A stretch of 40,281 nt of DNA from the NCBI GenBank assembly GCA_903850425.1, contig CAINLR010000018.1:1-40281 (forward strand), in the 5' to 3' direction. This DNA is from an uncultured Verrucomicrobia subdivision 3 bacterium. GTDB taxonomy: Bacteria; Verrucomicrobiota; Verrucomicrobiia; Limisphaerales; UBA11358. Made by a program: the position numbers and the translations under genes. Positions 21,693-25,143 of the stretch are shown here, piece after piece (position 1 is the stretch's first letter; the number at the start of each line of letters is the position of its first letter). Under the pieces are notes generated by a model. It searched no databases. It had not been told where the DNA came from and worked only from the letters and a program-made list of their open reading frames with translations.

Positions 21693-23000
21693 ATGGACAG
21701 AATTTCCGCCACTTATCTGATTGAAACGCCGCTGGCCGTAGAGAAAGCGGCGGCAGCGCTCGCGGGCGAACAGTCGTCGGGCACCTTCGTCGCCGTGCCG
21801 GGCGAAACCGAGGAGCTGAAACAGCGCTTCGCCGCGCGCGTGGAAAAAATCACGCCGCTCGAAGCCGTCAGCGAGCCGAGCTTGCCGGGCTGTCGAAGTG
21901 CGACTGGAACATTTCGCCGCGCGGAGATCGTTGTGTCCTGGTCGGTGGACAATTTCGGGTTCAACCTGCCGGCGCTCGTTTCAACGATTCAGGGAAATCT
22001 CTATGAGCTGTCCCAGTTCTCCGGTCTCAAGCTGATGGATCTGGAATTGCCGCCGTCGTTCGCCAGACAGTTTCGCGGGCCGAAATTCGGTGTTGCCGGC
22101 ACGCGCCAGCTCACCGGCGTTGGCGTTCAAGCTTCAGCTTGTTCCCTTGCGAATGCCGACACAGACAAGCTAAAGCTCGAACGCCAACGCCCCCTCATCG
22201 GCACGATCATCAAGCCGAGCATTGGCCTGTCGCCGCAGCAGACGGCCGCGCTGGTGAACATTTTGTGCGCCGCGGGCATTGATTTTATCAAGGACGATGA
22301 ACTCATGGCAAATCCACCGCACTCGCCGTTTGACGAACGGGTGGACGCCATCATGCGCGTCATCAACGCCCATGCCGACCGCACGGGCAAGCTGGTGATG
22401 TATGCCTTCAACGTGAGCGACGAGCTCGACGCGATGCAGCGGCATTATGAGAAAATCGTGAAGGCTGGCGGAACGAGCGCGATGATTTCACTGAATAGTG
22501 TCGGCCTCGCGGCCACGAAGAAGATTTGCGACCATGGCGCGCTGGCGATCCACGGTCATCGCAATGGCTGGGGCCTGTTGAACCGGCATCCGCTGCTCGG
22601 CATCGAATTTCCCGCGTATCAAAAACTCTGGCGGCTCGCGGGCGTGGACCAACTTCATGTCAATGGCATCGCGAATAAATTTTGGGAGAGCGACGATTCC
22701 GTGGTGCGCTCGCTGGAAGCCTGCGCGAAACCTTTGCTTGGTGGCATGTCCGTCTTGCCCGTGGTTTCCTCCGGTCAATGGGGCGGCCAAGCTTGTGAAA
22801 CATTTCGCCGCACGCAGACCGTGGACCTGCTTTACATGGCAGGCGGCGGCATCATGGCCCATCCGGATGGTCCAGCCGCAGGCGTGCGCTCGCTGCAAAC
22901 ATGGTGGGAGGCGGCGGTCGAAGGGCTGACGCCAGAACAGGCGGCGGCGAAATATCCCGAACTGAAAACATCCGTGGAGAAATTCGGGAAAACAAAATGA
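21693..23000 (+). CDS. RuBisCO-like protein (form IV, OiaX-like), with in-frame palindrome insertion
   Basis: A 435-residue RuBisCO large-subunit homologue. Catalytic positions are largely kept: K174 (GTIIKPSIGLSP), the metal-binding KDDE with K200/D202/E203, H289 (IHGHRNGWG), H322 and K329 (LHVNGIANKFWE), VVSSGQWGGQ and GGGIMAHPDGPAAG. They correspond to K175, K201, D203, E204, H294, H327 and K334 of RuBisCO. Known form IV proteins with these residues include OiaX, which acts on 3-oxo-isoapionate 4-phosphate. An acid-sugar kinase gene follows, which fits OiaK-OiaX. Residues 142-166, at the junction of the N-terminal domain and the barrel, are encoded by a 74-bp palindrome and look like inserted sequence. 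No small subunit or phosphoribulokinase is present, so carbon fixation is unlikely. Confidence 0.88.
   Translation: MDRISATYLIETPLAVEKAAAALAGEQSSGTFVAVPGETEELKQRFAARVEKITPLEAVSEPSLPGCRSATGTFRRAEIVVSWSVDNFGFNLPALVSTIQGNLYELSQFSGLKLMDLELPPSFARQFRGPKFGVAGTRQLTGVGVQASACSLANADTDKLKLERQRPLIGTIIKPSIGLSPQQTAALVNILCAAGIDFIKDDELMANPPHSPFDERVDAIMRVINAHADRTGKLVMYAFNVSDELDAMQRHYEKIVKAGGTSAMISLNSVGLAATKKICDHGALAIHGHRNGWGLLNRHPLLGIEFPAYQKLWRLAGVDQLHVNGIANKFWESDDSVVRSLEACAKPLLGGMSVLPVVSSGQWGGQACETFRRTQTVDLLYMAGGGIMAHPDGPAAGVRSLQTWWEAAVEGLTPEQAAAKYPELKTSVEKFGKTK
22117..22190. repeat. 74-bp palindromic element inserted in frame in the RuBisCO-like gene
   Basis: Arms 22117-22142 and 22165-22190 match as reverse complements at 24 of 26 positions, around a 22-nt loop. 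The left arm begins GCGTTGGCGTTCAAGCTTCA. It encodes residues 142-166 (GVGVQASACSLANADTDKLK then LERQR) without a stop or frameshift, directly before the conserved RPLIGTIIKP strand. Confidence 0.85.
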
Positions 23001-23082
23001 AACATTCAACATTCAACTTCGAACAGCCAGGGGCGGGCGCACAGGCAGTTGCTTGGACGTTGAGAGTTCAATGTTGAAGGTT
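23001..23082. repeat. Intergenic palindromic element between the RuBisCO-like and kinase genes
   Basis: The arms 23001-23024 (begins AACATTCAACATTCAACTTC) and 23059-23082 match as reverse complements at 19 of 24 positions, with a 34-nt loop. It starts at the first base after the RuBisCO-like stop codon and ends 13 bp before the kinase ATG. No T-tract follows, so a simple terminator role is not supported. Confidence 0.65.
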
Positions 23083-23095
23083 TCCCTGCCTTCGC

Positions 23096-24484
23096 ATGAG
23101 CCAGCTTCTCCTCACCTTCTATGGCGATGATTTCACCGGCTCGACCGATGCGCTGGAGCAGCTCACGCTCGGCGGCATCCGCACGGCGCTGTTCATTGAT
23201 CCACCGGCGCCGGCGCAGTTGAAAAGGTTTCCCAGCCTGCAGGCCATCGGCGTCGCGGGCAAGACGCGCGCGCTCGCGCCGGAGGCGATGGAACGCGAAC
23301 TCAAGCCGGCGTTGCTCGCGCTGAAGAAGCTCGGCGCGCGGCACATTCATTACAAAATTTGCTCCACGTTCGATTCCTCCCCGAGCATCGGCAGCATCGG
23401 TTGCGCGATGGATGTGGCGGCAAAGATTTTTCCGGCGCCATTTATTCCATTGCTCGTCGCCGCGCCGGCGCTGGGGCGTTACACGATTTTCGGCCAGCAC
23501 TTCGCGCGCTACGGTATCGGCAGTAGTGGCGCGATTCACCGGTTGGATCGGCATCCGTCCATCAGCCAGCATCCCGTCACGCCGATGGCCGAGGCGGATC
23601 TGCGGCAGCATCTCGCGCAGCAGACGCAGAAGCGCATCGCGCTGTTTGACATCTTGAAGCTGGCGTTGCCGGAAAAAAATTTCCGCGCTGCGTTTCAAAA
23701 CCTGCTCGACGAAAAGCCGGACGTGGTTTTGTTTGACGCGCTGACCCACGAAGATCTCGCGCGCATCGGCGGGCTGCTGGAAGCTGCCGCGACGAAGCAG
23801 GACCAGCTGTTTTCAGTCGGTTCGTCAGGCATCGAGGCGGCGCTGGCGACAAATTTTAGTCCCCGTAGCCACCGGCGTAAGGCGGCTCTGACAAATAAAT
23901 CAGCCATCGGCCATCGGCCATCGGCCATGGATTTGAGCCTCCTTACCTCGGCGGCTACGAAGCAAATCCTGGTCATCTCGGGAAGCTGTTCGCCGGTAAC
24001 CGGCGGGCAAATTGCCTGGGCGTTGAAGCGCGGTTTTCAAGAAGTGCGGCTGCGGCTGCCGGTGCTTGCTGCCGATCCCACCGGCGAAATCAATCGTGTT
24101 GCGCGAGCGGCGAATGCACTTTTACACAGCGGGCGCAGTGTCATCGTCCACACCACTCGACGGGGTGCCGACCAAAGAATTCCGGCCAAGCTCAAGGGCA
24201 AGACCGCCCGCTGGCTCGGCATGGCGCTGGGTGTGGTGGCCCACGGCGCATTGAAGAACAGGCTCGTCCGGCGCGTGTGCCTCGCCGGCGGGGACACGTC
24301 CAGTTACGCCGCGCGGGTGATGGGAATTGAAGCGTTGGAAATGATTGCGCCACTCACGCCCGGTGCGCCGTTGTGCCGCGTCCACGCCGCGGGCCGGCCG
24401 GCCGACGGCTGCGAAGTGGTGTTCAAAGGGGGCCAAGTCGGGCCGGAAAATTATTTTGAAATGGTTCTGAAAGGAAAAGCATGA
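23096..24484 (+). CDS. DUF1537-family four-carbon acid-sugar kinase (OiaK-like), with in-frame palindrome insertion
   Basis: A 462-residue ATP-dependent sugar-acid kinase. The N-terminal substrate domain starts with FYGDDFTGSTDALEQLTLGG and includes YKICSTFDSSPSIGSIG. The C-terminal nucleotide domain has ISGSCSPVTGGQIAWAL (about 294-310) and LAGGDTSSYAARVMGIEALE. Family members phosphorylate erythronate, threonate, related four-carbon acids or 3-oxo-isoapionate. Next to a RuBisCO-like gene the last (OiaK) is the best guess, by inference. Residues 257-288, at the linker between the two domains, are encoded by a 96-bp palindromic element and have no family character. The stop overlaps the start of the racemase-family gene (ATGA), so the two are coupled. 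Confidence 0.86.
   Translation: MSQLLLTFYGDDFTGSTDALEQLTLGGIRTALFIDPPAPAQLKRFPSLQAIGVAGKTRALAPEAMERELKPALLALKKLGARHIHYKICSTFDSSPSIGSIGCAMDVAAKIFPAPFIPLLVAAPALGRYTIFGQHFARYGIGSSGAIHRLDRHPSISQHPVTPMAEADLRQHLAQQTQKRIALFDILKLALPEKNFRAAFQNLLDEKPDVVLFDALTHEDLARIGGLLEAAATKQDQLFSVGSSGIEAALATNFSPRSHRRKAALTNKSAIGHRPSAMDLSLLTSAATKQILVISGSCSPVTGGQIAWALKRGFQEVRLRLPVLAADPTGEINRVARAANALLHSGRSVIVHTTRRGADQRIPAKLKGKTARWLGMALGVVAHGALKNRLVRRVCLAGGDTSSYAARVMGIEALEMIAPLTPGAPLCRVHAAGRPADGCEVVFKGGQVGPENYFEMVLKGKA
23864..23959. repeat. 96-bp palindromic element with heptamer core, in frame in the sugar kinase gene
   Basis: Arms 23864-23888 (begins CGTAGCCACCGGCGTAAGGC) and 23935-23959 match as reverse complements at 21 of 25 positions. 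The core holds four 7-bp units, GCCATCG x3 plus GCCATGG (23903-23930). Arm to arm it is exactly 32 codons and starts on a codon boundary, encoding residues 257-288. Confidence 0.83.
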
Positions 24485-25143
24485 AGAAGAAGCGACTTGG
24501 TTTGATTCACACCTCGGCGACGCTCGTGCCGGTGTTTGCGGCGCTGTGCAAAGCGAAGTTGCCGCATGTGGACGTCTTTAACATCGTGGATGATTCGCTG
24601 GTGCGCAGCATCCGCGAAGCGGGCCGCATTACTCCGACCATCGAAATGCGGGTGGCGGGCTATCTGACCTCAGCGGCTTATGCCGGTGCGGATTACATCA
24701 TGGTCACCTGCTCGTCCATCGGGCCGGCGGTCGAAGCGGGTGCCAAGGGGATTCCAACCCCCGTGCTGCGCGTGGATTTGCCGATGGCTGACCAAGCCGT
24801 GGCCGCCGGCAAAAAAATCGGCGTCATCGCCACGCTCTCCACGACGCTGGAACCGACGGCGGAATTGATTGAACGCCGCGCGGCGTTGGCCGAAAAGAAA
24901 ATCGAACTCACTGCCAAGCTCGTCGAGGGCGCGTTTGAAGCATTGATGGCGGGCGACGGATCAACGCACGACGCAAAAGTAGCGGCCGCGTTGCGGGAAT
25001 TGTCCCGACACGTTGACGTCATCGTCCTGGCGCAAGCCTCGATGGCGCGCGTGGTGGATTCACTCGCGGCCGCGGACAAGCGCGTGCCGATTCTGGCCAG
25101 TCCGGGCATCGCCGTGGATTATCTGGCGACGGTTTTGCAATGA
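24481..25143 (+). CDS. Asp/Glu/hydantoin racemase-superfamily protein lacking the second catalytic Cys
   Basis: A 220-residue protein of the aspartate/glutamate racemase superfamily. The N-terminal strand is RLGLIHTSATLVPVF and the first active-site Cys is kept as C77 in DYIMVTCSSIGPAVEAG. At the second position, where racemases have Cys, this protein has VIVLAQASMARV (A186, S187). One-Cys members include maleate isomerase-like and decarboxylase-like enzymes, so plain racemization is unlikely. It overlaps the kinase gene by 4 bp, implying that it acts in the same sugar-acid pathway, but no defined step of known apionate pathways is assigned to it. The reaction is unknown. Confidence 0.8.
   Translation: MKKKRLGLIHTSATLVPVFAALCKAKLPHVDVFNIVDDSLVRSIREAGRITPTIEMRVAGYLTSAAYAGADYIMVTCSSIGPAVEAGAKGIPTPVLRVDLPMADQAVAAGKKIGVIATLSTTLEPTAELIERRAALAEKKIELTAKLVEGAFEALMAGDGSTHDAKVAAALRELSRHVDVIVLAQASMARVVDSLAAADKRVPILASPGIAVDYLATVLQ

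Follow-up and report, generated by a model that had tools for sequence, protein, structure and literature searches.

A REPIN-like palindrome in frame within a RuBisCO-like gene belongs to a dispersed family in Verrucomicrobia

How does a long palindrome come to lie within the coding sequence of a RuBisCO-like gene, and how does the protein accommodate it? The question is raised by a 40,281-nt stretch of DNA from an uncultured Verrucomicrobia subdivision 3 bacterium, contig CAINLR010000018.1, which is referred to here as the window. An inverted repeat with two arms of 27 nt each, which are 93% complementary and 22 nt apart, is located wholly within the open reading frame (ORF) of the RuBisCO-like protein (Table 1). 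The original prediction had placed a palindrome with 26-nt arms, matching at 24 of 26 positions, in frame at 22117-22190; the palindrome is real, extends from 22116 to 22191, has the 22-nt loop that was proposed and leaves the frame intact. It is the sole inverted repeat reported between positions 21900 and 22500 and one of seven of at least 18 nt reported across the whole window. Folded as single-stranded DNA, the segment from 22110 to 22197 reaches -27.7 kcal/mol, compared to a mean of -10.1 kcal/mol for shuffled sequences (z = -7.6; 0 of 200 shuffles were as good), which, together with the copies found elsewhere, rules out a chance hairpin.

The product of the host gene matches the RuBisCO_large family with an E-value of 7e-61, and its best NCBIfam match is OiaX, a 3-oxo-isoapionate-4-phosphate decarboxylase (496 bits, below the curated cut-off of 700). 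The next gene matches OiaK, a 3-oxo-isoapionate kinase (405 of 700 bits, below the cut-off), and is followed by a gene of the Asp/Glu racemase family. Judged by these matches, of which those to OiaX and OiaK stay below their cut-offs, the region 21693-25143 looks like an operon for an isoapionate-type pathway. A second, imperfect palindrome (22999-23084; 31-nt arms, 77% complementary, 24 nt apart) begins at the RuBisCO-like stop codon, spans the greater part of the downstream intergenic gap and may represent another repeat family.

Table 1. Coordinates of the RuBisCO-like locus and of the palindromic element inside it (positions in the window)
Feature	Position	Strand	Basis
RuBisCO-like (OiaX-like) host gene, 435 aa	21693..23000	+	ORF and family matches
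Inverted repeat, left arm	22116..22142	+	Inverted-repeat search
Palindromic element, 70 nt (codons 143-165 and one base of codon 166)	22119..22188	+	Model R1 match (8e-15 on the - strand, 6e-14 on the + strand); alignment with other copies
Left-half mini-hairpin, CAAGCTTCAGCTTG	22128..22141	+	Half-unit positions 10-23
Spacer between half-units, 24 nt	22142..22165	+	70-nt element minus two 23-nt halves
Inverted repeat, right arm	22165..22191	+	Inverted-repeat search
Right-half mini-hairpin, CAAGCTAAAGCTCG	22166..22179	+	Half-unit anatomy
OiaK-like kinase gene, downstream context	23096..24484	+	Match below curated cut-off
Asp/Glu racemase family gene, context	24481..25143	+	Family match

Comparison with homologues shows that the segment is an addition to this one gene. 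RuBisCO-like homologues were found at E <= 1e-40 in 23 of 97 related genomes, the own genome included, and in the alignment 20 residues are absent from the homologues of all 22 other genomes, exactly between RQLTGV and ERQRPLIG; in one of these genomes the gene is split across two contigs, and the site is visible in both. PDB entry 3NWR, the closest solved relative, has a 20-residue gap at the same place. The segment is thus not a feature of the RuBisCO-like family, and the element copy is private to the own genome among the 23 with the gene. The extra in-frame residues that had been proposed are therefore present, but their net number relative to the homologues is 20 rather than 22 to 25. The unit that recurs elsewhere is the 70-nt element, whose predicted peptide within the RuBisCO-like protein includes, for example, GVQASACSLANADTDK. 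An AlphaFold2 model based on 37 sequences (mean pLDDT 84.5, pTM 0.86) places the segment between the helix 133-141 and the next strand, 168-172, with pLDDT values below 50 at residues 146-164 and also at a short stretch, 293-297. Residues 146-164 of the model fit a disordered surface loop, in keeping with the loop that the original prediction expected, and the column of the catalytic residue K174 is invariant in the 37-sequence alignment, which includes the own protein, so that this residue is kept as claimed. Four other genomes carry different in-frame inserts near query residue 350 of their RuBisCO-like genes (L041 in G035, L042 in G042, L043 in G022 and L051 in G021); two of these fold as very strong hairpins (-75 and -76 kcal/mol), and one reads GTGVPPV...RRDACPT.

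Further copies of the element were found in the own genome by DNA search. A half-site pattern allowing up to three mismatches gave 20 matches there and none when the pattern was reversed. The covariance model R1, which was built from 10 copies with a long-hairpin structure, recognizes at least 13 distinct places in the own genome including the 10 seeds, and as 150 of 4360 first-look candidates were scored, the number of copies may exceed 13. The weakest of the 13 (C149) has an E-value of 0.03, and the pattern match C57:22962, which is not among the model matches, was left out of the count. Of the 97 related genomes, 32 (own included) match R1 at E <= 0.001, and four of these do so with every one of their 57 scored candidates. 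With up to two mismatches, the half-site occurs 213 times in genome G073 and 52 times in genome G038, with no match of the reversed control in either. G015 and G084 are, like these two, rich in the element. The original prediction had hinged on other copies existing, and these are present both in the own genome and among its relatives. Across the phylum, a threshold of E <= 1e-5 is reached by 16 of 288 genomes, the own one among them; nine matches from other families were inspected, and the readable ones are variants of the element sequence. The first 300 bases of one locus from another family of the phylum (L278, G334) contain several copies of an element variant, arranged head to tail and separated by near-constant spacers. 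The RuBisCO-like segment is one somewhat decayed copy of a palindrome that is dispersed among Verrucomicrobia subdivision 3 relatives. A published description of this element family was not found in titles and abstract openings of the open-licence literature, which does not prove that there is none.

The anatomy of the element was derived from 93 copies, 13 from the own genome and 80 from relatives, the latter being the best-scoring ones listed rather than a random sample. These copies are 50-79 nt long and follow the consensus GTTGGAGTTCAxGCTTYAGCx'TG, a spacer of 4-33 nt and the inverse; they consist of two inverted half-units, each made up of a 9-nt tag and a 14-nt mini-hairpin. By column counts, the tag (half-unit positions 1-9) reads GTTGGAGTT. 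Covariation was assessed in 90 copies, i.e. 180 halves, after L072, L073 and L014 (own) had been dropped for indels or decay. The mini-hairpin pair x/x' (positions 12-21) is Watson-Crick in 176 of the 180 halves, compared to a mean of 95 and a maximum of 114 in shuffled data, whereas pairing between the halves at the covarying positions occurs in 64 of 180, which is below all 2000 shuffles (mean 94, minimum 73). Since the pair is kept within the halves and not between them, the conserved unit is the tagged mini-hairpin, used twice in inverted orientation; one long hairpin is ruled out as the structure conserved across copies, as between-half pairing lies below chance. Judging from this covariation, the conserved structure is a pair of mini-hairpins under a short outer stem, which is the plan of a REPIN. 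The long hairpin that had originally been described holds for the single RuBisCO-like copy, for which it is still the lowest-energy fold, but not for the family. The two halves of a copy tend to differ from each other.

Read from the consensus, the right half of the element is free of stops in one frame (KLKLELQ) and the left half in two (VGVQASACS and WSSSFSLS), with a third when Y is C; by its sequence, the element is compatible with coding, and the length of the spacer sets the phase. In the own genome, 5 of the 13 copies lie in frame within long ORFs with family matches, namely the RuBisCO-like gene and those for MnmE, RecJ, a Methyltransf_30 (MnmC-like) protein and a DUF2851 protein, and all five use the VGVQASACS-type frame. 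Among the relatives, 37 of the 80 copies are located in ORFs that reach 240 aa or more and leave 40 aa or more to each side of the element (L185 on both strands). For 17 of the 80 copies, the element falls within a single Pfam match, and for another 11 it is flanked by separate Pfam matches of the ORF; of these 11, two are weaker cases (L221, whose second domain is below the cut-off, and L226, possibly two fused genes); this gives 28 Pfam-supported in-frame copies out of 80, which is not an unbiased share, as the 80 are the best-scoring copies listed. The remaining nine relative copies in these long ORFs are not supported by Pfam on both sides, and two of them (L242 and L246) lie within an MnmC-like gene according to the alignment of orthologues. 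Genome G073 provides two additional in-frame cases, in MnmE and a class I/II aminotransferase. The hosts in relatives comprise MutS (two genomes), Mfd (three), FabD (two), UvrB, SelA, CysS, XseA, TatD, a CCA-type polymerase, RhaT, ApbE, two aminotransferases and others, where gene names such as Mfd, FabD or MnmC-like are interpretations of the Pfam matches. As a control for broken genes, 51 copies outside those ORFs were inspected and yielded 22 cases (21 copies) flanked by open frames of at least 110 and at least 70 codons; at none of these 22 candidate out-of-frame sites was one Pfam family found on both sides. As the frame is unbroken in the host genes, the element is probably translated as a floppy extra loop. 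A different kind of coding repeat was seen at locus L061 (G000:C4:71267-74563), where an ORF that, from reading its sequence, looks like alanyl-tRNA synthetase carries tandem SPNVGTP/SPNVGMP-type repeats.

These observations are best explained by a non-autonomous, REPIN-like palindrome that would be mobile, would keep the frame of the genes in which it persists and would be translated as a loop that the protein tolerates, an account that we regard as likely. A trans-acting enzyme that recognizes the mini-hairpins would copy the element, insertions that shift the frame or hit the core of a protein would be purged, and the survivors would be translated as disordered surface loops with little consequence for their hosts. 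At the two sites that could be resolved, the net gain is 20 residues (RuBisCO-like protein) and 16 residues (FabD).

The element could instead be retained for a function that its loop or hairpin performs in the host gene, for instance in regulation, localization or protein contact, and sites shared between genomes bear on this. The FabD genes of G073 and G010, two genomes from different families, carry the element at an identical site; among 31 aligned FabD sequences, two contain the element, one contains a different insert and the remaining 28 have nothing inserted there. The two FabD elements are identical at 56 of 58 positions, compared to 142 of 180 and 145 of 180 positions in the flanks. 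Shared sites were also found in DUF2851 (own genome and G015), MutS (G017 and G005) and Mfd (G046 and G031, with G073 at about the same place), and the alignment of 21 Mfd sequences shows the element in 3 of them. Of 30 aligned sequences of the MnmC-like gene, 4 carry the element in one variable loop, and the own copy is in a different reading phase, which suggests that a tolerant spot was hit more than once. The glycogen-debranching copies L226/L243, which are not at a shared site, and L207/L208, which do not lie in a recognised gene, were rejected as same-site pairs; both were left out of the pooled identities, as were the pairs of the own MnmC-like copy with L242 and L246. Pooled over six same-site pairs, of which the two Mfd pairs share one sequence, the elements are identical at 306 of 350 positions, compared to 1666 of 2145 in the flanks. 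This excess, the mere two differences in the FabD pair from two families, and the fact that, as a raw share, 16 of the 33 hosts (5 own and 28 from relatives) have family names that point to DNA, tRNA or transcription as their target speak for a function. However, the excess varies between pairs (P = 0.0002 for FabD, 0.002 and 0.06 for Mfd, 0.004 for MnmC) and is missing from MutS (P = 0.29) and DUF2851 (P = 0.44), and the RuBisCO-like copy is private to its genome. Within the same-site pairs, the halves are identical at 261 of 276 positions and the spacers at 45 of 74, a likeness that is compatible with shared ancestry, gene conversion, selection or repeated insertion of like copies alike. Retention of the element for a function in the host is thus improbable.

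Two of these host genes contain other repeats as well. A second variable spot of Mfd carries inserts ending in CDACPT and RRDACPT (L287 in G031 and L301 in G040), pointing to further coding repeat families in the genus. In the own MnmC-like gene (L062, around 1475-1590), the element is nested in a second palindrome with the outer arms GCCGAGCACCGTCTCGGC and GCCGAGACGGTGCTCGGC, and the flanks of the MnmE copy of G073 (L367), which read ERRAPTR...AETVPG, suggest the same composite.

How the element inserts was approached from its flanks and from candidate mobilizing enzymes. Small size, palindromic ends and many copies would also suit a MITE, which is a truncated DDE transposon with terminal inverted repeats that relies on an ordinary, target-duplicating transposase. 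However, no target-site duplication was detected in the 93 copies, as flank matches of 1-8 nt are within the shuffled range, and the covariation marks a mini-hairpin within each half instead of pairing between the halves; a longer or autonomous copy with a transposase was likewise not found in ten stretches of G073 (seven around half-sites and three around Y1 genes), which is a weak test. A MITE is therefore an unlikely identity for the element. Base composition next to the element is not strongly biased in the 93 copies. In FabD, an element of 58 nt stands in place of about 10 nt, e.g. GTGCCGAATC, with a net gain of 48 nt, and in the RuBisCO-like gene the 70-nt element adds a net 60 nt, so that again 10 nt were replaced; this figure comes from two sites compared with diverged orthologues, and the requirement for an intact frame alone would select 1, 4, 7 or 10 replaced nucleotides. 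By analogy with REPINs, a Y1-type transposase is the natural suspect for a mobilizing enzyme. No mobilizing gene came to light, however: the DNA around Y1-transposase loci contains no half-site at 30 loci in relatives (part of the Y1 matches there), 3 in the own genome and 3 further loci in G073, and the background of half-sites is low, with 4 in 120 kb of other loci including the RuBisCO-like element.

It is very unlikely that the hairpin is cut from the RNA or skipped by the ribosome to leave a protein without extra residues: bypassed hairpins do occur in some yeast mitochondria, and the element forms strong hairpins within conserved genes, but the in-gene copies, which were picked by their open frame, are open through both halves and the spacer, for which there would then be no need, none of the 22 candidate out-of-frame sites has one Pfam family on both sides, and both resolved sites show net gains divisible by three, whereas the lengths of the elements (70 and 58 nt) are not.

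The tolerated, translated REPIN-like palindrome thus remains the preferred reading, and it can tentatively be taken further. The element might be readable on both strands and owe its movement to an enzyme that does not belong to the known RAYT set and exchanges about 10 nt of target for the inserted copy, and it might serve as a routine source of new loops in core genes, with some insertions shared between families and with the halves kept unlike, as if perfect palindromes were avoided; we consider this extended version possible but rather doubtful.

In the accessible parts of the literature, in-frame coding palindromes are treated chiefly for Rickettsia. The present data extend this to environmental bacteria, whose conserved genes provide dozens of in-frame cases, with orthologues that lack the insert available from sister genomes. 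What began with a single odd gene is thereby extended to a palindromic family that lies in frame in many genes of a poorly studied group of environmental bacteria, and it becomes directly testable how mobile DNA adds loops to enzymes and how the survival of an insertion depends on the sequence of the element and the length of its spacer.

Several known systems invite comparison. MITEs are likewise small, apparently non-autonomous and present in many copies with inverted-repeat ends, but differ in their target-site duplications; a parent transposon was not seen in the ten G073 stretches. REPs and REPINs share with the element the tagged short hairpin units, the inverted pairing and the variable spacer; the tag GTTGGAGTT, however, is neither GTAG nor CGTC, and in contrast to REPINs with their RAYTs, no half-site lies beside the Y1-transposase loci checked. 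REPs of the GTAG and CGTC types have been reported within ORFs in several species, including GTAG REPs in the verrucomicrobium Opitutus terrae, which resemble the element in this respect, and the ORFs that contain REPs frequently have roles in DNA synthesis and repair (PMC3733652), which the raw share of hosts acting on DNA, tRNA or transcription recalls. The Rickettsia palindromic elements (RPEs) are described as in-frame palindromes of 100-150 bp, and orthologous host genes may share an insert at one position (PMC3767692, PMC10969869). RPEs and their Wolbachia counterparts are, like the present element, dispersed palindromes in frame in unrelated genes (here 5 of 13 own and 28 of the 80 best-scoring relative copies); the verrucomicrobial element differs in its two tagged mini-hairpin halves, its phylum and its length of 50-79 nt, although some in-gene RPEs are shorter and one RPE-4 of 84 is listed in PMC3767692, so that length is a soft criterion. 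The resemblance to RPEs that the original prediction had noted thus appears to be one of behaviour. A review of MITEs considers a similar route conceivable in other prokaryotes and calls the effect on the protein unexplored (PMC10969869). The verrucomicrobial element is built like a REPIN and behaves like an RPE.
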